Source: an uncultured Prevotella sp. (GTDB taxonomy: Bacteria; Bacteroidota; Bacteroidia; Bacteroidales; Bacteroidaceae). Taken from it: a stretch of 51,747 nt of DNA. The stretch is taken from contig CAMJWJ010000005.1 of the NCBI GenBank assembly GCA_946409435.1, positions 1 through 51,747 of the forward strand, given 5' to 3'. Position 1 is the stretch's first letter. Each line of letters starts with the position of its first letter. A model generated the notes under the pieces. The model made no database searches, was not told the origin of the DNA, and saw only the letters and a program-made list of their open reading frames with translations. A program made the position numbers and the translations under genes. This document shows, piece by piece, positions 2,931-51,747 of this stretch.

Positions 2931-4097
2931 TTAATGGCGCTCTCGGCGCACGGAAATACGACCGCTGCCAGACGACGAACTGCTGCGCTGGCGCACCCGC
3001 TTGGGCTTCTTGGCCTTGGTGGCCTTCTGCTCGACGGCCTCCTCGTTGGCGGCATTGTCCTGAGCGTCTTCAGCCTGCTCGCCCTTGCCCTTACGGCTGC
3101 GGCGTGACTTCTTGCCCGACTTGGCAGCCTGAGCCTTCTTGGCAGCGGCAGCTATGGAGTCCTTGCGCTCTTGGTCACCGAAGAGGTTCTTCTCAAAGGC
3201 GGTTAGCTCGTTCTCTATCTTCTGCTGCTCCTTGGCCATGGCAGAGTCGGTAGGACAGTACTGGGCCAGCGTACGGCCGAGCATGTTGTTGGTCTTGTAG
3301 ATCTTACCCTCGTAGCGGTTCAGCGTGAAGAAGTCCTCCATCGACATGGTGGCGGCATTGTTCAGGTTAGACGTCATGACCGTCTGCCGACCGAGGTATG
3401 GAGCCAGGTCGCTGTACTTTACCCAGAAGAGTGGGTACTTCGAGGCCTCGCCGCCAAAGTCATCCTCGCGCATCATGACGGGACAGACGGCCAGCACCTT
3501 GCGGCGGAACGACGAGTTCGCCTGGTCGTAATAGGCACTCTCCTTCAGGTAGTACAGCTTGACCTCTGCAGAAGGGATGTCGCTGTTGTCGACACGCAGC
3601 TTGCCGTCCTTCTCTTCGTAGTAGATGTGGAAGTTGTCGAGGATGGTCTTGATCTGCACGCGGGCTGAGTCGGTGAACGACTCGTTGCCGTCAAGGCGGT
3701 ATTCATAGACGGGGATGTAGTTGTTCAGGGCCAGCTTGAAGACGTAGGTGAACAGGTTCACCTGACGGTCCATCGGCTCCACGGGATAGTAGAGGCCGCC
3801 ATTGGCATCCTGGCTCAGGTCTATCTCGCGGTAGATGTCGCGTCGCCATACCACGTCCTCGGGCATGTCGAGCGATGTGGGAAACATCAGCTTGGCACGC
3901 ATCGACACACCCTGGTTCTGGTTCTGTGTCTGCTTCCGCTGCTGAGCCTGCTGCTGAGCCTGCTGGCGACGAGCTTTCGGCTGAGCCTGTACGGCAGAAA
4001 TGAAGAATAAAGAATGAAGAATGAAGAATGCTGCGCACAGTAACATCCTTGACACACTCAGACATTCATTCTTTCGCTTATCGATATTCGTTGTCAT
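2931..4097 (-). CDS. gldN: type IX secretion system protein GldN/PorN
   Basis: A 388-aa periplasmic component of the T9SS core; GldN/PorN forms a ring with the lipoprotein GldK under the outer membrane. The family's central region is clear (DVVWRRDIYREIDL, then NLFTYVFKLALNNYIPVYEY and KYPLFWVKYSDLAPYL). It follows gldM on the same strand and is last in the operon. Two oddities stand out. The signal peptide core FFILHSLFFI is encoded by a 7-nt tandem repeat of the kind found between genes in this window. The C-terminal 90 residues are a low-complexity Lys/Arg/Ala/Ser tail (SGKKSRRSRKGKG, RQRSSSSSGSGR). The start at 4097 gives 17 residues before a second Met at position 18, which would also leave a signal peptide. 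Confidence 0.95.
   Translation of the reverse strand: MTTNIDKRKNECLSVSRMLLCAAFFILHSLFFISAVQAQPKARRQQAQQQAQQRKQTQNQNQGVSMRAKLMFPTSLDMPEDVVWRRDIYREIDLSQDANGGLYYPVEPMDRQVNLFTYVFKLALNNYIPVYEYRLDGNESFTDSARVQIKTILDNFHIYYEEKDGKLRVDNSDIPSAEVKLYYLKESAYYDQANSSFRRKVLAVCPVMMREDDFGGEASKYPLFWVKYSDLAPYLGRQTVMTSNLNNAATMSMEDFFTLNRYEGKIYKTNNMLGRTLAQYCPTDSAMAKEQQKIENELTAFEKNLFGDQERKDSIAAAAKKAQAAKSGKKSRRSRKGKGEQAEDAQDNAANEEAVEQKATKAKKPKRVRQRSSSSSGSGRISVRRERH
3997..4030 (-). repeat. heptanucleotide repeat inside the gldN signal-peptide codons
   Basis: The plus strand reads AGAATAA, AGAATGA, AGAATGA, AGAATGC after a degenerate first unit, an exact 7-nt period. It is translated on the minus strand as part of the hydrophobic core of the GldN signal peptide. 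The same unit occurs in the gldM-gldN gap at 4176-4200. Confidence 0.85.
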
Positions 4098-4175: not shown

Positions 4176-4200
4176 ATTCTTCATTCTTCATTCTTCATTT
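4176..4200 (-). repeat. heptanucleotide array across the gldM stop codon
   Basis: Three ATTCTTC units plus a degenerate fourth lie in exact 7-nt register. The TGA stop of gldM (4195-4197 on the minus strand) falls inside the first transcribed unit. The rest of the gldM-gldN gap holds two copies of TCGTATATTATA about 27 nt apart. Confidence 0.85.
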
Positions 4201-6778: not shown

Positions 6779-6850
6779 GTTGTTATTCGGTTTTACGATG
6801 TTTCGTTATTTCGTGTTATCGACATTCCCGTGTTACGGCATGTCGTGTCA
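6779..6850. repeat. octanucleotide array in the gldK-gldL gap
   Basis: The plus strand divides into 8-nt units with a CG-leading register: CGGTTTTA, CGATGTTT, CGTTATTT, CGTGTTAT, CGACATTC, CCGTGTTA, CGGCATGT, CGTGTCAC. The last unit carries the gldK stop codon (TGA on the minus strand, 6848-6850). A similar CG-led octamer array lies after truB at 30869-30952. Confidence 0.65.
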
Positions 6851-14948: not shown

Positions 14949-14955
14949 ATATAGT

Positions 14956-15017
14956 GAATTATGAACTATGAATTATGAACTATGAACTATGAACTGTGAA
15001 CTATGAACTGTGAACTA
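14956..15017. repeat. heptanucleotide array GAAYTRT downstream of the symporter gene
   Basis: Eight clean 7-nt units (GAATTAT, GAACTAT, GAACTGT variants) and a partial ninth, without any register slip. It ends 5 nt before the symporter stop (minus strand, 15023) and touches the terminator hairpin on the other side. The reverse complement of the same unit forms the metH-metF array at 45169-45273. Confidence 0.92.
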
Positions 15018-16582: not shown

Positions 16583-16675
16583 TGATGAGTAATTAGTAAT
16601 TAGAAATTAGTAATTATGATTAGTAACTCCACAGGAGTGAAGCGACAGGAAGTGGACTGTATGAGGTAATCATAA
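16583..16675. repeat. heptanucleotide array with inverted arms between aldolase and symporter genes
   Basis: TGATGAG, TAATTAG, TAATTAG, AAATTAG, TAATTAT, GATTAG, TAACTCC follow one another. After about 40 nt of unique sequence the inverse (TAATCATAATTA) returns and runs into the stop codon of the aldolase gene at 16676-16678. The core TAATTATGATTAG is shared with the nrdD-nrdG spacer. Confidence 0.88.
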
Positions 16676-17575
16676 TTAGCCGTTACTCATTACTGATTTG
16701 ATAATGAGCTGTTCTTCTTCGGCCGACAGCCGGGTGAGCGGCATGAGCATCCACGGCTCGCACAGTCCTTTCGTGCTCATCATCACCTTTAGGGCGGTGA
16801 GGCTCTGCCCGAGCGTACGGTCTTTCTGGTAGATCTTAGCTACCTTGTCCGTCTCTTCCTGCAGCCGGTTAGCCTCCTCGGTGTCACCATGCACGGCAGC
16901 CTCGAAAAGCTGGCTGAACATGCCGGGCACGTAGTTGCCCGTTGATGGCACGATGCCGTTGCCACCGAGCTCCAGCGAGTGTGCACTCTGTGCTGCCCAA
17001 CCGCAGAAGTATGCGAAGTCGTCGCGTCCCTGGGCTATTTCGATGCACTGGGCCATACGCTCCATGTCGCGCTCAGAGTCCTTTAGTCCTACGATGTTGG
17101 GATGGTCGGCCAACTGGCGTATGATGTCTACAGGTATCGACATGTGTGTCGTTGCCAGGATGTTGTAGAGCATCAGCGGGCCGGTGATGCAGTCGGCCAG
17201 CGTCTTGTAGTAGTCGTACATCTGCGCTTCTGTCAGCGCATAGTATGTCGGCAGCGTAGCCACGATGACGTCGGCCCCCAGGGCTGTGTACACCTCCGCC
17301 TGCCTTACCTGTTCTGTGAAGCAGTTGCCTGTCAGTCCGGCATAGATGAGCATCTGTCCGCTGCGGGCTGCCACCGCCGTCTCGACCAGTAGCTGGCCGT
17401 CGGCCTGCGACACGGAGTTGCCCTCTCCGGTAGTTCCCATGAGCAGTGGCGACACGTTGTGTTCGCCAAAGAAAGTGATTATACGCTTCACGGCTTCCAC
17501 GTCGAGCCGCCCGTCCTGTGTGACGGGTGTCACCATTGGCACCACAACGCCACGATACTTACTGTTGTTCATCAT
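16676..17575 (-). CDS. DHDPS/N-acetylneuraminate lyase family aldolase
   Basis: A 299-aa class I aldolase of the DapA/NanA superfamily (TIM barrel). Seen: VPMVTPVTQDGRLDVEAVKR at the start, PLLMGTTGEGNSVS phosphate/carboxylate-binding loop, catalytic Tyr137 (LMLYNIL) and Schiff-base Lys165 (IVGLKDSE). The residues after the loop differ from true DapA, and the neighbours are not lysine-pathway genes, so a 2-keto-3-deoxy acid or sialic-acid-type substrate is more likely. It precedes an SSS symporter on the same strand and lies beyond the caspase pair from the C4 sugar-acid genes. The last codons (KSVMSNG and stop) coincide with a 7-nt repeat array. Confidence 0.88.
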   Translation of the reverse strand: MMNNSKYRGVVVPMVTPVTQDGRLDVEAVKRIITFFGEHNVSPLLMGTTGEGNSVSQADGQLLVETAVAARSGQMLIYAGLTGNCFTEQVRQAEVYTALGADVIVATLPTYYALTEAQMYDYYKTLADCITGPLMLYNILATTHMSIPVDIIRQLADHPNIVGLKDSERDMERMAQCIEIAQGRDDFAYFCGWAAQSAHSLELGGNGIVPSTGNYVPGMFSQLFEAAVHGDTEEANRLQEETDKVAKIYQKDRTLGQSLTALKVMMSTKGLCEPWMLMPLTRLSAEEEQLIIKSVMSNG

Positions 17576-17918: not shown

Positions 17919-20012
17919 ATGGAAATCAAGAATTTTACCATTACGAAGCGTGACGGTAGCAAAGACCGTTTCTCGTTAGACAAGATTATGAACGCAATTG
18001 TAAAAGCGTTCGAGAGTGTAGGAGAGCCAGCCGACTTGAGCACCGTGTCGAAGATACTGAGCCATCTCGACATGCACGACGACATCAAGGTGGAGGACAT
18101 CCAGAACCAGGTGGAAGAGGCGCTGATGCGTGAGGGCTTCTACAAGGTTGCCAAGTCGTTCATCCTCTATCGCCAGCAGCACACCGAAGACCGTGAGACG
18201 CTGGAGAAGATGACGTTCCTGTCGGAGTACATGGAGTCGGTGAATGCCGCCACTGGTTCCAAGTACGACGCCAACGCCAATGTGGAGCACAAGAATATTG
18301 CCACGCTCATCGGCGAGCTGCCGAAGTCGAACTTCATCCGGCTGAACCGCCGTCTGCTTACCGACCGCATCAAGAAGATGTACGGCAAGCAGCTGGCCGA
18401 CAAGTACATCGACATGCTGACCCACCACTTCATCTACAAGAACGACGAGACGTCGCTGGCCAACTACTGCGCCAGCATCACGATGTACCCCTGGCTCATC
18501 GGTGGTACGACGTCAATCGGCGGTAACTCGACGGCTCCCACCAACCTGAAGTCGTTTGCCGGCGGTTTCGTCAACATGGTGTTCATGGTCTCGTCGATGC
18601 TCAGCGGTGCCTGTGCCACCCCCGAGTTTCTGATGTACATGAACTACTTCATCGGCAAGGAGTGGGGCCTCGACTACTGGAAGCACCCCGAGCAGCAGGC
18701 TGACCTCTCGCTGAAGAAGCGCACCATCGACAAGATCATCACCGACTACTTCGAGCAGATTGTCTATACGCTGAACCAGCCCACCGGTGCCCGCAACTAC
18801 CAGGCTGTGTTCTGGAATGTGGCCTACTACGACAAGTACTACTTCCAGAGCATCTTCGGCGAGTTCTACTTCCCTGACGGCTCACAGCCCGACTGGGACG
18901 GACTGTCGTGGTTGCAGAAACGTTTCATGAAATGGTTCAACCAGGAGCGCACCAAGACCCTGCTGACGTTCCCCGTCGAGACGATGGCCTTGTTGGTCGA
19001 CGAGAACGGCGAGTGCAAGGACAAGGAGTGGGGCGACTTCACTGCCGAGATGTACAGCGAGGGCCACTCGTTCTTCACCTACATGAGCGACAATGCCGAT
19101 TCGCTCAGTTCGTGCTGCCGTCTGCGCAACGAGATTACCGACAACGGCTTCAGCTACACGTTAGGTGCCGGTGGTGTCAGCACGGGTTCTAAGTCTGTGC
19201 TCACCATCAACCTGAACCGCTGCATCCAGTATGCCGTCAATCACAAGATGGACTATCTTGAGTATTTAGGCGACGTCATCGACCTCTGCCACAAGGTGCA
19301 GCTGGCCTACAACGAGAACCTGAAGGAGCTGCAGGCCCACGGCATGCTGCCGTTGTTTGACGCCGGTTACATCAACATCTCCCGTCAGTATCTGACCATC
19401 GGCATCAACGGACTGGTTGAGGCAGCCGAGTTTATGGGACTGAAGATCACACCTAATGACGACTACAAGAAGTTCGTGCAAGGCATCCTCGGCCTTATCG
19501 AGCAGTACAACAAGCAGTACCGCACAAAGGATGTCATGTTCAACTGCGAGATGATTCCTGCCGAGAATGTCGGTGTGAAACATGCCAAGTGGGACCGCGA
19601 GGACGGCTACTTCGTGCCGCGCGACTGCTACAACTCCTATTTCTATGTGGTGGAAGACGACTCGCTGAGCGTCATCGACAAGTTCAAGCTGCACGGCACT
19701 CCCTACATCGAGCATCTCACCGGTGGTTCTGCTCTTCACATGAACCTCGACGAGCACCTGTCGAAGCAGCAGTACCTGCAGCTGCTGAAGGTTGCTGCAC
19801 AGGAGGGTTGCAACTACTTTACGTTCAACATTCCCAACACTGTATGCAACGACTGTGGCTATATCGACAAGCGTTACCTGAAAGAGTGTCCGCACTGCCA
19901 CTCCAAGAATGTGGACTACATGACTCGCATCATTGGTTACCTGAAGCGCGTCAGCAACTTCTCGCAGGCCCGCCAGGAGGAAGCATCAAGGAGATATTAC
20001 GCTCATGCCTAA
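17919..20012 (+). CDS. nrdD: anaerobic ribonucleoside-triphosphate reductase (class III)
   Basis: This 697-aa glycyl-radical enzyme reduces ribonucleotides without oxygen, supplying dNTPs for DNA synthesis. An ATP-cone allosteric domain covers about residues 3-92 (ITKRDGSKDRFSLDKIMNAI). The catalytic barrel contains SSCCRLRNEI and the C-terminal zinc site CNDCGYIDKRYLKECPHCHSK. The glycyl radical motif is RIIGYLKRVSNFSQ with Gly at about 673, 24 residues from the end. Length and motifs are complete. Its activase NrdG follows about 200 nt downstream beyond a repeat-filled spacer. The long leader carries two palindromes that may control expression. Confidence 0.97.
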   Translation: MEIKNFTITKRDGSKDRFSLDKIMNAIVKAFESVGEPADLSTVSKILSHLDMHDDIKVEDIQNQVEEALMREGFYKVAKSFILYRQQHTEDRETLEKMTFLSEYMESVNAATGSKYDANANVEHKNIATLIGELPKSNFIRLNRRLLTDRIKKMYGKQLADKYIDMLTHHFIYKNDETSLANYCASITMYPWLIGGTTSIGGNSTAPTNLKSFAGGFVNMVFMVSSMLSGACATPEFLMYMNYFIGKEWGLDYWKHPEQQADLSLKKRTIDKIITDYFEQIVYTLNQPTGARNYQAVFWNVAYYDKYYFQSIFGEFYFPDGSQPDWDGLSWLQKRFMKWFNQERTKTLLTFPVETMALLVDENGECKDKEWGDFTAEMYSEGHSFFTYMSDNADSLSSCCRLRNEITDNGFSYTLGAGGVSTGSKSVLTINLNRCIQYAVNHKMDYLEYLGDVIDLCHKVQLAYNENLKELQAHGMLPLFDAGYINISRQYLTIGINGLVEAAEFMGLKITPNDDYKKFVQGILGLIEQYNKQYRTKDVMFNCEMIPAENVGVKHAKWDREDGYFVPRDCYNSYFYVVEDDSLSVIDKFKLHGTPYIEHLTGGSALHMNLDEHLSKQQYLQLLKVAAQEGCNYFTFNIPNTVCNDCGYIDKRYLKECPHCHSKNVDYMTRIIGYLKRVSNFSQARQEEASRRYYAHA

Positions 20013-20020
20013 CTAATTTG

Positions 20021-20202
20021 TAATGAGTAATGAGTAATTAGTAATTATGATTAGTAATGAGTGATGAGGAATGAGTAGTGGGTGATGAGGAATGAGAAAT
20101 GATGATTACATTTCGTCGTGAAAGAGACCCTTGAAAACAACGACATTTGCAGCACACAGACTAATCATAATTACTCATTACTCATTATTCATTACTAATT
20201 GG
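20021..20202. repeat. inverted heptanucleotide arrays between nrdD and nrdG
   Basis: The left arm (20021-20107) reads TAATGAG, TAATGAG, TAATTAG, TAATTAT, GATTAG, TAATGAG, TGATGAG, GAATGAG and further variants. The right arm (20161-20202) is its inverse (CTAATC, ATAATTA, CTCATTA, CTCATTA, TTCATTA, CTAATTG). About 53 nt of unique sequence lies between. A transcript could fold into a long A/U-rich hairpin separating the two cistrons. Confidence 0.9.
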
Positions 20203-24998: not shown

Positions 24999-25421
24999 AA
25001 AAACCCTTCACCAACGCTGTAATATGTTGCACGACAATGGTTTGCGGTGAAGGGTATCGGTGGGACAACGTGAAGGGTGTCGGTGTGGCAATGTGAAGAG
25101 TTGACGGGATAACGCCCTTCGCAAGTTCTTCCAATCATTTTCAGCTCTGTGAGTGGCCTTCTCAGCTCAGTGAGTGGCCCTCTCACGATCGTGAGTGGCC
25201 TACTTATTGCAATTAGTAGGCCACTAACTGAAATTACCCATAGAGTAAATCCGGAAATGCAATGAGTAAATGCAAAGACCAGCGATGGTGCACTCACCTC
25301 TTCCATCATCCATCATCCATCTTCCATCATCCATCACACATCATCCATCACACATCACACATCCAACCCTTCACCTTATCTTGTTGTATCATAGTGTGTT
25401 ACCCGTCTGGTGAAGGGTTTT
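24999..25421. mobile_element. MITE-like element built from inverted ACCCTTCACC modules
   Basis: A 423-bp gene-free segment whose two ends are inverted versions of one module. Left: AAACCCTTCACC (25001-25012), 33 nt, GGTGAAGGGT (25046-25055). Right: AACCCTTCACC (25365-25375), 33 nt, GGTGAAGGGTTTT (25409-25421). The 33-nt insides are recognisably similar as reverse complements. Between them lie more GTGAAGGG copies, three GTGAGTGGCC direct repeats (25149-25200) and a 7-nt array. The two track ORFs here, on opposite strands, both read a similar ending (VGEGFFVLYY, SGEGFCCMT), as expected of inverted ends. No transposase; mobility is inference. Confidence 0.65.
25301..25364. repeat. heptanucleotide CCATCAT/CCATCAC array
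   Basis: Nine consecutive 7-nt units (CCATCAT, CCATCTT, CCATCAC, ACATCAT, ACATCAC) in perfect register, located inside the MITE-like element and abutting its right inverted module. Confidence 0.9.
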
Positions 25422-29223: not shown

Positions 29224-29275
29224 CTTATTTCTTATCTCTTACATCTCTTACCTCTTACCTCTTACCTCTTACCTC
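29224..29275. repeat. heptanucleotide CTTACCT array across the folK stop codon
   Basis: CTTA recurs at 7, 7, 9, 7, 7 and 7-nt intervals. The folK stop (TAA on the minus strand, 29255-29257) and its last codons (VRGKR) lie inside the array, which continues about 30 nt beyond the stop. Confidence 0.88.
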
Positions 29276-29716
29276 TCCAAGCGGTATCATGACGAAGTCG
29301 CGCTGGTGCATCATCGGATGGGGTATCTTCAGACCTGGTTCGTCTACCGTGAGGTCGTCGTAGAGCAGGATGTCAATGTCTATCGGACGGTCTTTGTAGC
29401 TTGATACTTCATGCCCGGTAATGGTTGAATGGCTGCGCACGGTGGCGTGGCGCTGGTTTTTGCCCATGTCGCGCTCTATCTGCTGAGTAGTCGCTAAAAG
29501 CTGGCGAGGAGACAGGGAGGTCTTACAGAAGATGACGGCGTTCAGGAACTTGTTGGCAGTCTCGAAGCCCCATGGCTCCGTCTCGATGACTGACGACTGG
29601 CGCACCACGCGGCCTACCCGCTCGCCGACGAGACGGATGGCCTGTCGGATGTGCTCCTCCCTGTTGCCCAGGTTTGTGCCCAGTCCCAGATACACGTCGT
29701 GTGTCCCGTCGCTCAT
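29255..29716 (-). CDS. folK: 2-amino-4-hydroxy-6-hydroxymethyldihydropteridine diphosphokinase
   Basis: HPPK transfers pyrophosphate from ATP to the pterin in folate synthesis. The 153-aa protein shows VYLGLGTNLGNREEHIRQAI, the substrate-binding SSVIETEPWGFETANKFLNAVI and the metal/ATP motif DRPIDIDILLYDD followed by LKIPHPMMHQRDFVMIPL. A loop before DRPIDID (RHATVRSHSTITGHEVSSYK) is longer than usual. The last residues (VRGKR) are encoded by a tandem 7-nt repeat, so the normal C-terminus may have been replaced. It begins 7 nt after queA and is the last gene of the ftsX operon. Confidence 0.93.
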   Translation of the reverse strand: MSDGTHDVYLGLGTNLGNREEHIRQAIRLVGERVGRVVRQSSVIETEPWGFETANKFLNAVIFCKTSLSPRQLLATTQQIERDMGKNQRHATVRSHSTITGHEVSSYKDRPIDIDILLYDDLTVDEPGLKIPHPMMHQRDFVMIPLGEVRGKR

Positions 29717-37499: not shown

Positions 37500-40400
37500 T
37501 CAGTCATCTTTTAGTTCAAATCTTCTGGCTTCCGTTGCGGCTGCAATATTAATGACCTCTTGAATATCCAAAGCATTTATCTTGCCGTCACCGTTGATGT
37601 CATACTTGCTTTCTGCTGATTCGACTACGGCAGCATTGATGATTTCCTGAACATCCAGTGCATTGACGATGCCGTTGCAGTTGACATCACCTTTTTGCAA
37701 TATCATGGCTGCACAATTTTCTGTGACGTCTGCAGGTCCATAAGTATTATTAGTCGAATCATAGCTCCATACACCGCGAGGTGTCGACCCATCATAAGTT
37801 TGGCTTCCTACAATAAGTACGACATCAGGAGTATAGAAATTATTCGAACATATACTTGATCCGATAGACCAACCTATAACACCTGCTCCAAAACTGCTTG
37901 ACCCCGAACCTATAGTACTATTTATGGTGCAACCAGAAACCATATTGTCACATATAATTGTAGACGGATATGTATTACTTCCGAAAATGCCGCCAACGTC
38001 ATACGGACCTGTGACATCACCCTGATTCTGACAATTCTTGACGGAGCTATTTTGTCCTGTTATCAGTCCGACAATACCTCCAATCCAAAAGCCGTCAGAG
38101 ACAACGTTACCATAATTTTCGCAATTCAGTATATTACCTGCATCAAGGTCACCGGCAATACCACCTGTCATTCCATTCTCCGATTCGCAAGTAATTGCAC
38201 CATAGTTCTTGCAATTACTGATAGTACCCATGTTATCTCCGCATATACCTGCGACATGATACTTTGTGCATGAAACAGCGGCGAAATTGACACAATTGTC
38301 AATAGTTCCCTTATTTGATCCGGCAATACCTGCAACATTACTCGTGTAACCATTAATCTTGCAGCTCTCATCAATGGTGACGTTAGCTACTAAGCCATTC
38401 TTACCGATATAGCCAAACAGAGCCTTGTCTGTCGACAAGTTCATGATGCTGACCCCGTTACCGTCAAAATTGCCAGAGAAACCAATGACCACTTCATTAC
38501 CATTTGTATCGTATTCACCTCTTCCTATGGCCGTATAAGTAATGCCGCTGAAATCTATTTCAGCCTTGCCTACCTTAAAGTATGTGCCACTGTACGAATT
38601 TCCGTTATTGACATCTCTTGCCAACACCTTGAAATCTCCTATAGTATTAATGATGTATGGTGAATCGGCTGTCCCATCTCCTCCGCTAAACATTTCTGGG
38701 TCTGAGATCTGCTTGATACACAGGAAATCCTTCCAAACGTCAGCTTTCAAATAGAGATCAACACATCCTTCTGGTACGTATAAATACATGTTTTCAACAT
38801 TCGTAAATGTTGACGAACTGATTATAACTGGCTCAGCCATTCCTACCTTTACCTTCTCCATGTTCGAGCAACCGCTAAAACACCATTCGCCGATAGAGGT
38901 GATGCTTTGCGGAAGACTAATCTCTACGAGATTCGAAATGTTACTAAAAGCTCCTGGGGAAACGGATATAGTACCCTCGTCAATGGTAATAGCACTTCGT
39001 TCGGGCATTTCTCCCTTATATTTATAGGCTATTTTCCCAACATAGACGATGCCGTCTTCTTTGTCATTATACCACTGGGTATAATCAAAAGCCTGACTTC
39101 CAATATAATTGATAGTACTTGGGAAATCAATAGAAGCCAGATTTGTGCAGATAGAGAAAGCTGCCGCTCCTATTGAATGTACATTCTCTGGGATAACTAT
39201 AGACGTAAGACTGGTACATCCGCTAAACGAAGAATCTTCTATCTTGTCAATGGCTGAGGGAATAGTAAAAGATGTCAACGCTGTGCAGTTGGCAAATGCT
39301 GAACTGCCTATATAAGTAACGGTTTGTGGCAATGAGATAGTTGTAATACTGCTACATCCGGAAAATGTTCCCCATCCTATGGATTCGATACTATTGGGGA
39401 TGTCGACAGTTACCAAGTTCGAACAGCCTTCAAACATTGAACTACCTGTCTTTGTGAATCCATCTTTCAAAATAACAGTCCGTAGTTGTGAACAATTCTT
39501 GAAAACTTCGCTATAAATAGTTCTAACGCTACCGGCGATTTCTACGCTTTCCAAACCGGTACACTTCTTGAAAGCCTCATCGTATATTTCTGTTACACCA
39601 TCAGGAATAATTGCGGAAGTCAGTTTGTAGCATTGCTCAAAAGCCTCGGTTCCAATTGCATCTATTGATGAGGGTATTACTACGGAAGTGATATTAGTCC
39701 TTCTAAACGATCTATAACCGATACTTATAACTCTATAGCCATAAACAACAGACGGAATGGTCACATTACCTTCATAACTTGTAGAAATAGCTGCCGAGGA
39801 GCCATTACCAACCATACAAGTTCTTTCCGTGTTGCTTATGACTTTAAATGTCATGTCAATATCTTCTAAAGTCTTTGCTGAAAATGTATCTCCGTCCTGG
39901 AGCTGTGAAGGCATTTCAATGATCTCCATAAACTCCTTCCAGTAGTCGGCAGCCTCGTAGGCTGCCTTGCAGCCTGCGGGAACATAGAGCGTAGCGTTAG
40001 CACGATTGGAGAAAGTGAAAGAAGTGATTGCTATTGGCTCTGTTGCCTCGACAGTTACAGCACTTAGGTTGCTACAACCCCAGAAAGCAGAACTGCCAAT
40101 AAAGATCACACTACTTGGTATGACCACCGATTCTAAACTCTCCAATTCATAAAAAGCATAAATGCCTACAGTGGTGATATCGTCTGGAATCACCAAATGC
40201 CTGATGGCAGAGATGTTACCATCTGAAGTCTGCAGTAATAAGCTCTTAGCAAAAGATAACGGATTAGAACGAGTATAAGAAAATGAGGATTTGCACCAGG
40301 CACTGACGTCAGTGATGACTACTTGCTTCAATGCGTTACAATCTCGAAATGCATCTTCTCCGCTGAAATAGCATTTCGTTCCATCAAAAGTAATAGAAGT

Positions 40401-41507: not shown

Positions 41508-44500
41508 ATGAATATAGACGAACTGTTAAGTCAGCGGATTCTAATACTCGACGGTGCCATGGGTACAAAGATACAGTCGCTCGGACTGTCAACCGATGCT
41601 TACCACCGCGGACGCTTTACACAGTGGCCGGTATCGCTGACGGGCAACAACGACGTGCTGTGCCTGACGGCTCCCGATGTCATTGCCGACATCCACCGGC
41701 TGTATATCGAGGCAGGTGCCGACATCATCACCACCAACACCTTCTCGGCTAATCGTATCAGTCAGCATGAGTACGGCTGTGAACAGTTGGCCCGTGAGAT
41801 GGCCCGAGAGGGCGCGCGCATTGCCCGAAAGGTTGCCGACAGCTATTCTCTCGCCTCTAAAAAGATTTGGGTTGCTGGCTCCATGGGACCGACGTCGAAG
41901 TCGCTGTCGTTGGCCTCCGACATGAACGACCCTGCCTCGCGCAGCATCGGCTTCGACGAGATGGCGACAGCATACGGCGAACAGGCTGAGGCGCTAATGG
42001 ACGGTGGTGCCGACATGTTGCTGCTGGAGACCTGCTTCGATGCCCTCAATGCCAAGGCCGCGCTCTATGCTATTCAGCAACTGAACGAGCGGCTACACAC
42101 GGAGATACCTGTCATGGTGTCGGCCACCATCAACGACCGTAGCGGCCGCACGCTGACGGGTCAGACCCTGGAAGCCTTCTTTGTCAGCATCGCCCACTAT
42201 CCGCGGCTGCTCAGCTTCGGACTGAACTGCTCGTTTGGTGTCACCGAGCTGCGGCCCTTCGTGGAACAGCTGTCTGAGCGCATTCCTGTCAACCTGTCGC
42301 TGTACCCTAATGCCGGACTGCCTAACGAGATGGGCGAGTACGAAGAACTGCCGGAGTTTACCGCCAGCCACCTGCGCCAGATGGGCGAGGCCGGTTTGCT
42401 GAACATAGCCGGAGGCTGTTGTGGCACTGACGAGCATCACATCCGTGCCATCAGCACCGCCCTCCGTGGACTGCCGCCCCGTCGGTTGCCTGCAGTTGAC
42501 CGCCGCCTTTGGCTGAGCGGACTGGAGCCGTTGCTCGTCGACCGTGAAACCCAGAACTTCACCAATATCGGCGAGCGTACCAACGTGGCCGGCTCACGCA
42601 AGTTTGCCCGCCTCATTGTCTCCAAGCAGTACGACGAGGCCCTCGCCGTGGCCCGTCACCAGATAGAGGGTGGGGCGGCCATTATCGATATCAATATGGA
42701 TGATGCCATGCTCGACAGTCGCCAGGAGATGCAGACTTTCTGCCGCTGCGTCAGCAACGACCCTGCCGTCTGCCGCTCCGTGCTGATGGTTGACTCCAGC
42801 GACTGGTCCACCGTGCTGGCTGGTCTGAAGAACGCACAGGGTAAGTGCATCGTCAACTCCATCAGTCTGAAAAACGGAGCCGACGACTTCCTCCTCAAGG
42901 CCCGCGAGCTGCGCCGACTGGGTGCTGCCGTTGTCGTGATGGCCTTCGACGAGGAAGGTCAGGCGACGACTTACGAGCGCAAGACGGCCATTGCCAAGCG
43001 TGCTTACGACCTGCTGACCGGCATCGGTTTCCCACCGCAGGATATCATCTTCGATGTCAACATCCTCTCTGTCGGTACAGGTCTCAGAGAGCATCAAGCC
43101 TACGCCGTCGACTTCATCCGTGCCGTTGCATGGATCAAGCAGCACCTGCCGTTGGCTAAGACCAGTGGCGGCGTCAGTAACCTGTCGTTTAGCTTCCGTG
43201 GTAATAATAAGGTACGCGAGGCCATGCACTCCGTGTTCCTCTATCATGCCATCCGAGCCGGTCTCGACATGGCCATCGTCAACCCTACCATGCTACAGGT
43301 CTACGACGACATTGACCCGCAGTTGCTGAAGGCCGTTGAGGACGTTGTGCTCAACAGCGACGACGAGGCCACCGAGCGACTTATCTCACTGGCCGCCGAA
43401 TACAATAACTCCCAAAGCACTCAGACAGCCACCCTAACACCCACCCCCTGTTCCTCCCGAGGGGAGGAGGTGAGTGATCGCCTTGCTGCCGCCCTGATCA
43501 AGGGTGTCAGCGACCACCTGGCAGTTGACATACCAGAAGCCCTGCAGAAGTACGGGCGCCCCATCGACGTCATCGAGGGACCGCTCATGCAGGCCATGGA
43601 GCACATCGGCCAGCTGTTTGGCGAAGGTAAGATGTTCCTGCCCCAGGTAGTCAAGTCGGCGAAGGTCATGAAGGATGCCGTGGCCCTGTTGCAGCCCTAC
43701 ATTGATGCCGAGGGTACTGCGGCCACCGACCGTCCCTGCGTGGTGATGGCGACGGCCAACGGCGACGTTCACGACATCGGCAAGAATATTGTCAGCATCG
43801 TGCTGGGCTGTAACGGCTTCGATGTCGTCGACCTCGGCGTGATGGTGCCCTGCGAGACCATCCTGCAGGAGACCCTCAGCAGGCACCCCAGTCTGGTGGG
43901 CATCAGCGGACTTATCACGCCGTCGCTGAAGGAGATGGAGCAGCTATGCCGTCTCTTCCAGCAGCATGCCTTGCAAGTACCCATCGTGGTGGGTGGAGCC
44001 ACCACGTCGGCCGTGCATACCGCTGTCAAGCTGGCTCCGCTCTACGACGGCTGTGTAGTCTATGGCGGCGATGCCTCGCAGACGTCGCTGCTGGCCAAGC
44101 GCCTGCAGATGGATGCTGCGGCCACTATCGCCCAGATCAAGGACGAACAGGCCCGACTGCGTAGTGCCTACGAGGGACATCATGCTGAAATAGTCAGTTA
44201 TGAGGAGGCGAATAAGAAACGGCTGTTGCAGCGGCCCCACGCCCAACACCCAATTTATACGGAGGGGAGTGGTTACACTCAAGGGGCGAGTATGTCGCAA
44301 CATGAGAAATCAGACGGTGTAGCTCTGTCGAGGTATGGGCAGCTGTATGGAGCGCCTAAACTATATACTCCTCTCCCCACAAAGGGTGGGACGGGGGATG
44401 GTCTTCTTTCCCACATCGACTGGCGTATGTTCTTGCTGTTCTGGGGTTTCAAGGGAGAGACGCTACAGCAGCTGCTGGTTAATCCCGAGGCAGAGCGCAC

Positions 44501-45191
44501 GCTGGCCGAAGGTAAGCAGTATCTGCAAGACGCTATTGCACGTGGCACCATCCAGGTGCAGGCCCTCTGTCACTATGAGCCGGCTACGAGTCGTGGCAAC
44601 GACATCGTGCTCAGCGACGGCACCGTGTTGCCCATGCTGCGGAGTCAGAGTGCAGCAGGTCATTTCCTTTGTCTTTCCGACTACTACGACGAGCAGCAGC
44701 CGTCGCCCATAGGCCTGTTTACCGTTGTGGCACGTCCCATTGTACAGCCTGCCGACGAAGCCGAACGGCTGATGTGTCATGCCATCTGTGCCCGACTCGC
44801 TGAGGCTGCGGCAGTATGGTTGCAAAGCCTGCCCTCATCCCCTCAAAAAGAGACAGGAGACTGTTGCCAGCCTTGTTGTGCCAACGATGGTGAGCGGGTA
44901 GGACCGTGTCTCCGTGTGGCCTTTGGCTATGCCACCTGCCCAGACCACTCGCTGAAGCGCATTGTCTTCGACCGTCTTGATGCCGAGCGGCAGTTAGGCA
45001 TCACGCTCACCGACCACTATTCCATTCAGCCTTCTACGTCGGTCTGTGGTCTCTTCATCTGCCATCCCGAGGCGCGCTACTTCCCAGTCGGACGCATCGA
45101 CCAGGCTCAGTTTGCCGACTACTGCCGCCGTCGTGGCATTACGCAGGATGAGGGGGAGAAGCTGTTACAGTTCATAGTTCATAATTCATAG
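41508..45191 (+). CDS. metH: cobalamin-dependent methionine synthase
   Basis: A 1227-aa modular enzyme moving a methyl group from methyltetrahydrofolate through cobalamin to homocysteine. Modules: homocysteine-binding barrel (about 1-325, zinc Cys in FGLNCSFG and GGCCGTDEHH), pterin barrel (about 340-600, NFTNIGERTNVAGSRKFA), B12 module with DVHDIGKNIVSIVLG and the Gly/Ser-rich SGLITPSLKEM, and reactivation domain with RVAFGYATCPDHS. Three low-complexity insertions interrupt linkers: about 638-658 (TATLTPTPCSSRGEE), 908-968 and 1107-1130. The last residues (QFIVHNS) and stop lie in a 7-nt array. metF follows. Confidence 0.97.
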   Translation: MNIDELLSQRILILDGAMGTKIQSLGLSTDAYHRGRFTQWPVSLTGNNDVLCLTAPDVIADIHRLYIEAGADIITTNTFSANRISQHEYGCEQLAREMAREGARIARKVADSYSLASKKIWVAGSMGPTSKSLSLASDMNDPASRSIGFDEMATAYGEQAEALMDGGADMLLLETCFDALNAKAALYAIQQLNERLHTEIPVMVSATINDRSGRTLTGQTLEAFFVSIAHYPRLLSFGLNCSFGVTELRPFVEQLSERIPVNLSLYPNAGLPNEMGEYEELPEFTASHLRQMGEAGLLNIAGGCCGTDEHHIRAISTALRGLPPRRLPAVDRRLWLSGLEPLLVDRETQNFTNIGERTNVAGSRKFARLIVSKQYDEALAVARHQIEGGAAIIDINMDDAMLDSRQEMQTFCRCVSNDPAVCRSVLMVDSSDWSTVLAGLKNAQGKCIVNSISLKNGADDFLLKARELRRLGAAVVVMAFDEEGQATTYERKTAIAKRAYDLLTGIGFPPQDIIFDVNILSVGTGLREHQAYAVDFIRAVAWIKQHLPLAKTSGGVSNLSFSFRGNNKVREAMHSVFLYHAIRAGLDMAIVNPTMLQVYDDIDPQLLKAVEDVVLNSDDEATERLISLAAEYNNSQSTQTATLTPTPCSSRGEEVSDRLAAALIKGVSDHLAVDIPEALQKYGRPIDVIEGPLMQAMEHIGQLFGEGKMFLPQVVKSAKVMKDAVALLQPYIDAEGTAATDRPCVVMATANGDVHDIGKNIVSIVLGCNGFDVVDLGVMVPCETILQETLSRHPSLVGISGLITPSLKEMEQLCRLFQQHALQVPIVVGGATTSAVHTAVKLAPLYDGCVVYGGDASQTSLLAKRLQMDAAATIAQIKDEQARLRSAYEGHHAEIVSYEEANKKRLLQRPHAQHPIYTEGSGYTQGASMSQHEKSDGVALSRYGQLYGAPKLYTPLPTKGGTGDGLLSHIDWRMFLLFWGFKGETLQQLLVNPEAERTLAEGKQYLQDAIARGTIQVQALCHYEPATSRGNDIVLSDGTVLPMLRSQSAAGHFLCLSDYYDEQQPSPIGLFTVVARPIVQPADEAERLMCHAICARLAEAAAVWLQSLPSSPQKETGDCCQPCCANDGERVGPCLRVAFGYATCPDHSLKRIVFDRLDAERQLGITLTDHYSIQPSTSVCGLFICHPEARYFPVGRIDQAQFADYCRRRGITQDEGEKLLQFIVHNS

Positions 45192-45273
45192 TTCATAATT
45201 CATAGTTCACAGTTCATAGTTCACAGTTCATAGTTCATAATTCATAGTTCAAAGTTCATAGTTCATAATACAT
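45169..45273. repeat. heptanucleotide AGTTCAT array spanning the metH stop and the metH-metF gap
   Basis: Fourteen consecutive 7-nt units (AGTTCAT, AATTCAT, AGTTCAC, AGTTCAA) plus a degenerate fifteenth, with no register slip over 105 nt. The first three units encode the metH C-terminus and stop (45189-45191); the remainder separates metH from metF. The reverse-complement unit forms the array at 14956-15017. Confidence 0.95.
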
Positions 45274-45281
45274 ATATTATC

Positions 45282-46238
45282 ATGAAAGTCATCGACATCC
45301 TGAACAATAGCCAGCGACCATTTGCCAGTTTCGAGTTGGTGCCACCCCTGAAGGGCAGCGACGTCACACGGCTGTACGACAGCATCGACCCGCTGATGGA
45401 GTTTGTACCGCCCTTCATCAATGTTACGTGCCACCGCGACGAGGTGGAGTACGTGCTGAATGCCGACGGTACCTACACCAAGATGACGCTTGCCAAGCGA
45501 CCGGGCACCGTAGCCATCGTGGCAGCCATCATGCGCCGCTATCCCACGCTGGAGATCGTGCCGCACGTCATCTGTGGCGGTGCCTCGCGCTCCAAGGTAG
45601 AGAGTGAGCTGCTCGACCTGCACTTTCTCGGTGTGCAGAACGTGGTAGCCCTGCGTGGCGATGCCATTCCCGGCCAGCGTTTCTTCATCGCCGAGCCCGA
45701 CGGCTTCAGCCACAGCTCCGAGCTGGTGGCCATGATCAGCAGTCTTAACCGCGGCCAGTATCTTGACCCCACAGTGAAGAACGGCTTGTCCACCGACTTC
45801 TGCGTCGGTGTGGCTGCCTACCCTGAGAAGCACTACGAGGCAGCCAATCTCGACACTGACATACAGTATCTCAAGCAGAAGGTGGAGGCCGGAGCCGACT
45901 ACATCGTCACCCAGATGTTCTTCGACAACAGCCAGTACTTCCGTTTCGTCGACCGGCTGCGCGAGGCTGGCATCAAGGTACCTGTCATCCCTGGCTTGAA
46001 GCCCATCTCCAGTCAGCGACAGATTGACCTGCTGCCCCGCTCCTTCCACATCGACATTCCGCAGCCGCTGGTCAGCGAGCTCCGTAAGGCGAAGAGTGCT
46101 GATGCTGCCTACCAGATCGGTATCGAGTGGGCCATCCAGCAGAGCCGTGAACTGCTGGCTCACGGTGCTCCTGCCGTTCACTACTATACGATGGCCAAGA
46201 CCGACAACGTACGTCAGATTGTCAAGGCTGTCTTCTGA
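45282..46238 (+). CDS. metF: methylenetetrahydrofolate reductase
   Basis: A 318-aa FAD-dependent TIM-barrel enzyme making the methyltetrahydrofolate used by MetH. Features: FASFELVPPLKG at the start, PFINVTCHRDEVEYV, HVICGGASRSKVESELLDLHFLGVQNVVALRGDAIPG, VEAGADYIVTQMFFDNSQYFRFVDR and VPVIPGLKPISSQRQ. The pathway neighbour metH lies 90 nt upstream across a repeat array, so co-transcription is likely, though no terminator is evident in the gap. Length is normal. Confidence 0.97.
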   Translation: MKVIDILNNSQRPFASFELVPPLKGSDVTRLYDSIDPLMEFVPPFINVTCHRDEVEYVLNADGTYTKMTLAKRPGTVAIVAAIMRRYPTLEIVPHVICGGASRSKVESELLDLHFLGVQNVVALRGDAIPGQRFFIAEPDGFSHSSELVAMISSLNRGQYLDPTVKNGLSTDFCVGVAAYPEKHYEAANLDTDIQYLKQKVEAGADYIVTQMFFDNSQYFRFVDRLREAGIKVPVIPGLKPISSQRQIDLLPRSFHIDIPQPLVSELRKAKSADAAYQIGIEWAIQQSRELLAHGAPAVHYYTMAKTDNVRQIVKAVF

Positions 46239-51630: not shown

Positions 51631-51721
51631 GAAAACACCTGTTTTCTTTTGCGTCCGAGCGAAAAGTAAGTTTGGCGCAGCCAAAGTTACACTACTCAAG
51701 TTTCCCACCTTTTATAATAAT

Positions 51722-51747
51722 CAAGAATTAGAGAATTAGAGAATTTC
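51722..51747. repeat. start of a GAATTAGA octanucleotide repeat at the window edge
   Basis: GAATTAGA occurs twice in register followed by GAATTTC. The array, if it is one, continues outside the window. Confidence 0.4.

Follow-up and report, generated by a model that had tools for sequence, protein, structure and literature searches.

At the end of the methionine synthase gene metH in an uncultured Prevotella sp., a tandem array of the heptamer AGTTCAT encodes the last six MetH residues (FIVHNS) and the stop codon, and occupies the spacer before a metF-like gene (Table 1; the window is the whole 51,747-nt stretch of contig CAMJWJ010000005.1 that was analysed). The 3′ end of the coding sequence reads CTG TTA CAG TTC ATA GTT CAT AAT TCA TAG, giving the terminus ..LLQFIVHNS, and bears out the preliminary description, in which the MetH stop and last residues were read as heptamer units. 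When C-termini are aligned, as that description had proposed, MetH in most relatives ends in ..EGEQLLSKYIAH or similar, followed by a short spacer and metF, and here in ..EGEKLLQFIVHNS; native metH codons have therefore been replaced by the array. The array lacks a partner facing it and does not fold as RNA (z +1.1).

The metH–metF junction in relatives is often a spacer of 5–20 nt with no array. In the congener G027 it holds a different heptamer array (AACTTGG) and MetH is shorter, and in L181, L182, L184, L185 and L198 it holds octamer-like CGATATAA/CGACATAA tracts that bear stops in the sense strand, with the CGATATAA-like tract of L184 supplying the end of MetH. In-frame heptamer arrays also apparently lie within metH of related Prevotella (L184, L185, L189, L194, L196, L198 and L199), the longest reaching 157 bp (L199:8510-8667).

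Table 1. Repeat features of the window and the genes at the metH–metF junction
Feature	Position	Strand	Basis
metH; tail partly array-encoded	41508..45191	+	Pfam activation domain intact up to residue 1210 of 1227
metH stop codon TAG, inside array	45189..45191	+	sequence
Heptamer array (AGTTCAT)n, family C, no inverted partner	45169..45267	+	TRF: period 7, 14.1 copies
metF-like gene, downstream; begins 14 nt past array	45282..46238	+	gene calls
Second family A array, opposite orientation, in start region of next gene; encodes FFILHSLFFI	3999..4030	+	TRF
Family A arm (AATGAAG)n, then TTGCTTCTGCC; holds GldM stop (4195-4197)	4176..4199	-	sequence
Family C array, flanked by convergent genes; 6 nt past one of their stops	14955..15017	-	TRF
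Family B palindromic element: TAATTAG arm, TATGATTA core, degenerate right arm	16588..16690	.	fold z -2.8
Family B inverted pair, cores AGTAATTATGATTA at 20040(+) and 20162(-)	20020..20200	.	fold z -7.4
GATGTGT/GATGGAT array, end of longer dispersed repeat, core CATCGCAGGTCTTTGCATTTACTC	25302..25363	-	TRF
GGTAAGA array encoding FolK tail ..EVRGKR and stop	29230..29276	-	TRF; CDS ends at 29255

Four further genes of the window had been described as ending in or at arrays. For three of them the reading holds: the gldM stop falls within a family A arm, the folK stop within a GGTAAGA array that also encodes the end of the protein, and the stop of the aldolase gene (17575-16676; TAA at 16676-16678) within a family B palindromic element. 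The C-terminal Pfam domain of GldM is complete to residue 521, so that the array contributes its stop only, whereas in FolK the HPPK domain (Pfam) runs to residue 149 of 153, about where the array starts, and protein alignments with relatives mostly end at residues 149–152. The fourth, gldK, is a weak case: its stop at 6848 does lie at the edge of an octamer-like tract, but the tract is degenerate and TRF calls no array there. The family B pair at 20020 begins 8 nt behind the stop at 20012.

Other repeats are also present. GATGTGT/GATGGAT arrays border a CATCGCAGGTCTTTGCATTTACTC-core intergenic repeat on C4, C11, C50, C61 and C62 as well as in the window, and the two together are apparently a separate dispersed element. 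The window end (51690-51747, CAAGTTTCCCACCTTTTATAATAATCAAGAATTAGAGAATTAGAGAATTTC) recurs within a family B element at C3:50540-50600 and is another dispersed repeat. No Rfam family matched the window, L239 or L281 at gathering threshold.

Heptamer arrays and the ends of genes

The assembly comprises 2.76 Mb in 190 contigs, and our genome survey covered 2.20 Mb, with 1,518 genes called by a simple hexamer gene finder and arrays listed from about three copies up. Period 7 is extreme, with 170 arrays compared with 0–11 for each other period from 4 to 12. After merging, there are 168 heptamer arrays, 145 extragenic and 23 within genes.

Measured against random placement, a check that the preliminary description had suggested, extragenic arrays are concentrated at stop codons: 44 of the 145 overlap a stop (13.5 expected) and 74 lie within −24 to +10 nt of one (19.4 expected). 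Start codons are overlapped by 9 of 145 (13.9 expected), a comparison that is rough because the simple gene caller places starts imprecisely (for example, 37500-38750 is called within a longer ORF); the stops are firm. Across 0.63 Mb around metF in related Prevotella assemblies, many of them from the rumen, period 7 is again dominant (50 versus at most 10) with differing units; of 27 extragenic arrays there, 11 run across a stop.

Moving each array or element within its own same-strand junction, up to 23 nt into the upstream gene, qualifies this concentration. In this slide test, 40 stop overlaps are observed and 45.4 expected. An excess does appear 0–8 nt behind the stop (22 observed, 8.6 expected) and is due chiefly to junctions in which no more than 30 nt is other sequence; among arrays in spacers longer than 100 nt, 4 of 28 overlap a stop (2.4 expected) and no array lies 0–8 nt behind one. 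A uniform stop-anchoring rule is ruled out by the conditional test together with the long spacers. What was first proposed thus stands in one half: arrays supply stops far beyond random placement, but the further suggestion that they are placed relative to translation termination is not supported, with no significant anchoring in the long spacers.

The composition of the units bears directly on these overlaps. Nearly all heptamer units contain a stop codon on at least one strand and, as 7 is not a multiple of 3, an array closes any reading frame that it enters; a stop-bearing unit does so in all three frames within 21 nt, so that a gene whose end is entered by an array necessarily takes its stop from it. 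A stop codon is present on the sense strand of the unit in 43 of the 44 stop-overlapping arrays and in 27 of the 30 that lie 0–10 nt behind a stop. Among distinct units of the genome and relatives, TGA/TCA is over-represented (14 of 24 versus 25% expected; p 5e-4 before correction, 32 classes).

Within genes, 15 of the 23 arrays have a stop-free unit in the sense strand and the remainder sit in an open frame. Arrays and palindromes persist in open frame in a TsaE loop, in MetH and in GltB/GltD-like genes. Family A copies in ORFs mostly carry, in the 5′ arm, the unit AATTAAG in place of AATGAAG, keeping one frame open (NEELRMKNEE). In TsaE (L020:13072-13578, C11), a palindromic insertion of ~35 residues (NEELRMKNEES..AAANSSFFILHSS) occupies the loop NEY-..-YHFDFYR; this palindrome is absent in most relatives, and others carry different heptamer or palindromic inserts at the same loop. 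In-frame palindromic insertions were found in TsaE and four other ORFs. Taken together, the in-gene and gene-end patterns fit a broad landing of repeats that are then filtered for harmlessness.

Inverted arms and PF05635 genes

First, the polarity of the arrays is fixed. Adjacent same-family arrays of opposite polarity less than 500 nt apart face inward in 28 of 28 cases, and their inner flanks are family-specific, family A ending in AATTTGCT[AG]CCGCC and family B in TAATTATGATTA. For family B, 51 core sites were counted in the genome; most form inward pairs with about 55–200 nt between them, and one pair (C45:5572/6057) encloses a gene for a 23S rRNA intervening-sequence protein (IVP). As RNA, most paired elements form strong folds (z about −6 to −18) and lone arrays do not; the degenerate element at 16588-16690 reaches only the value in Table 1. 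Among stop-proximal arrays of assigned families, only 18 of 67 have an inward-facing partner. Higher-order 14-bp patterns are present within arrays. Copying of whole family C arrays between loci was considered and rejected, mean unit-order sharing being 2.46 versus 2.71 when shuffled; unit order that is unshared beyond chance points to local slippage after seeding.

Second, genes of the four-helix-bundle family PF05635 (IVP, also named S23p) lie between such arms. PF05635 'four helix bundle' proteins are common and have, to our knowledge, no known function, and we know of no recombinase activity for IVP. The genome contains four IVP genes; both of those within the 2.20 Mb surveyed lie between inverted arms, one in a family E pair (C15:2507-2967) and one in a family B pair (C45:5540-6100), in elements with fold z of −5.5 and −7.3. 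In G027, an IVP gene is flanked on both sides by arms of AGTTCAT, the heptamer that also makes up the metH array. The IVP proteins of C15, C45 and G027 match a solved structure, 2rld (E 1e-48). For families A, D, T and L, no IVP-bearing copy was seen in the 2.20 Mb read.

Third, the association extends beyond Prevotella. We collected 26 IVP genes from Prevotella, Bernardetia, Cyanobacteriota, Treponema, Monoglobus, Chloroflexota, one IMG/VR contig and one phage, and ten of the tested proteins were confirmed as PF05635. Plasmid and viral records supplied homologues together with their flanking sequence. Flanking inverted repeats (score ≥18) were found at 22 of these 26 genes, in five phyla and in 21 of the 22 cases heptamer-periodic, with an effective sample nearer 23 than 26 because some loci are related (L282/L287/L288; L284/L290). 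Among controls, they occurred at 0 of 30 Nostoc plasmid coding sequences and 2 of 254 short genes of the genome itself, neither heptameric, so that heptameric flanking repeats were found at none of 284 genes. Each IVP locus or group has its own unit (TAATTCG, GAAGTCG, AAATTCA, GATTAGT and others). IVP homologues in viral contigs were found at one locus only.

Fourth, arms supply stop codons at IVP loci elsewhere. In L279 (a helicase, ..VIRNS), L281 (..QNNS), L277 (a Treponema transporter) and L292 (..MKDEG), the gene upstream terminates in the left arm, and such endings occur in Nostoc, Treponema and Chloroflexota plasmids; the stop of the IVP gene itself is often at the edge of the right arm. 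In three Nostoc plasmids that are ~91% alike (L282, L287 and L288), an IVP element sits inside a DNA cytosine methyltransferase gene and divides it, so that the N-terminal part of the gene ends in the arm (..QESIRNSQFAIRNY; ..QFAIIN in L288). The same gene is uninterrupted in L300 and L301, which lack the arm-encoded tail, and 328 nt of it is missing at the insertion site relative to intact homologues; the two halves may still work together or may be dead. An element between cas2 and cas1 gives cas1 a repeat-encoded tail, and the site is uninterrupted and without the tail in Nostoc UHCC 0870 and N. edaphicum. No clear target-site duplication was seen at the three homologous sites compared (at most 86% identity).

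As to gene neighbourhoods, IVP genes of cyanobacterial plasmids lie between cas2 and cas1 (L284, L290) or directly before cas1 (L294), and those of L279, L280, L291 and L292 adjoin helicase/methylase or HsdS/HsdR genes.

Origin of the arrays and relation to known systems

We lean towards the explanation that each heptamer array is an arm of a small palindromic (IVP-type) element, either one of its terminal inverted arms or a single arm left behind, and consider it probable. The anatomy of the elements, the association of IVP genes with heptamers, the stops supplied by arms and the homologous sites without an insertion are direct observations. A complete element consists of an arm, a PF05635 gene and an inverted arm, about 450–560 bp in all; most copies would be short non-coding, MITE-like derivatives or lone arrays. 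The elements would be mobile, presumably with a part played by IVP. Insertions elsewhere break genes, so the arms would be found where a gene terminates, between closely spaced operon genes and in protein loops that tolerate them, with selection probably filtering the insertion sites. With stop-bearing units of period 7, an arm lying across a gene end replaces the last codons and supplies the stop. Within a transcript, paired arms would fold together and might be substrates of RNase III, like rRNA intervening sequences (IVSs). A lone array may be what slippage has made of a former arm, or it may have no element in its history; that of metH would descend from an element arm and, as it is a lone array, this explanation is weakest for the very feature with which we began.

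The arrays might instead be slippage-born heptamer satellites that grew from chance seeds and survive where harmless, the IVP elements merely carrying or attracting repeats. The 14-bp patterns, the unshared unit order, the many lone arrays and the change of unit from species to species at one and the same junction agree with such an origin, as does the rank of heptamers as the commonest long SSR class in bacteria (PMC4679880). We nevertheless find it unlikely, because dozens of loci share whole arms together with their conserved cores, arm polarity is invariant, and in five phyla inverted arms enclose IVP genes while the controls are clean. Selection for the arrays as all-frame stop insulators, which would terminate translation in every frame and uncouple operon neighbours, would account for the stops in the sense strand of the units and for tight junctions being filled by arrays; it is quite improbable, however, given that stop overlap is in line with the geometric expectation in the slide test, that array orientation follows also from fixed arm polarity, that relatives often make do with a short array-free metH–metF junction and that arrays are present within genes. 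Least probable is insertion aimed at stop codons, with a protein or RNA sensing where a coding region terminates. In its favour are the excess 0–8 nt behind stops, the TAA directly flanking the G027 IVP element on both sides and the TGA/TCA bias of the units; against it stand the long spacers without anchoring and the in-gene insertions in TsaE, MetH and the methyltransferase.

In a wider form of the element explanation, which we advance tentatively and hold at a little less than even, the heptamers of Prevotella, cyanobacteria (STRR), Bernardetia, Treponema and others would be inverted arms or relics of one widespread mobile class with IVP as its sole protein, rRNA IVSs would be members that landed in rRNA, and host genes would routinely acquire new 3′ ends from the arms. 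Unrelated bacteria have been reported to carry heptamer repeats, with no account of where these came from, and the IVP link would give the repeats and the PF05635 proteins alike a shared, testable context; the elements so understood would rewrite gene ends, sit in proteins and operons and possibly undergo RNA processing like IVSs. For annotation, C-terminal tails such as VHSS, FIVHNS, NEK and VIRNS can be repeat DNA. In the literature searched, mostly non-subscription journals, we found nothing joining heptamer arrays generally to IVP genes, and novelty is provisional to that extent.

Several known repeats resemble these elements in part. REP/BIME elements and MITEs are short palindromic repeats, intergenic and near gene 3′ ends. 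Family B shares with MITEs its terminal inverted repeats and dispersed, mostly non-coding copies, one of them enclosing an IVP gene; unlike REP/BIME elements and MITEs, the elements here have tandem heptamer arms, and their apparent partner is IVP and no transposase such as RAYT. Rickettsia palindromic elements (RPE) are palindromes inserted in frame inside protein genes, as are those in the TsaE, GltB/GltD-like and MetG-like genes here, but heptamer arms, sequence and host all differ. STRR sequences, the heptanucleotide repeats of heterocystous cyanobacteria, are likewise heptamer arrays, for which we know of no element or protein link; here such arrays are arms of IVP elements in Nostoc and Anabaena plasmids.

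The TAACTGA heptamers of Beggiatoaceae, Cyanobacteria and some Bacteroidetes are also tandem and mainly intergenic, place stops in all frames in one orientation and in some cases overlap the upstream stop (PMC4679880), so that all-frame stops at gene ends were already known; as described there, they are direct repeats close upstream of start codons, with no inverted arms or IVP link. Also related are the 23S rRNA IVSs with S23p/IVP of Coxiella, Leptospira and Salmonella (PMC4990558). The Coxiella IVS, which is excised by RNase III, has a similar length (428 nt) and heptameric repeats (GACAGAT) before its S23p ORF (PMC4990558). The elements described here share with these IVSs a PF05635 protein in the full-length form and inverted, complementary ends able to form a stem, and differ in lying outside rRNA, between or in protein genes (C15, C45, G027, cas1/cas2 and the methyltransferase are all protein-gene sites), in having long heptamer arms on both sides and in their many non-coding copies.
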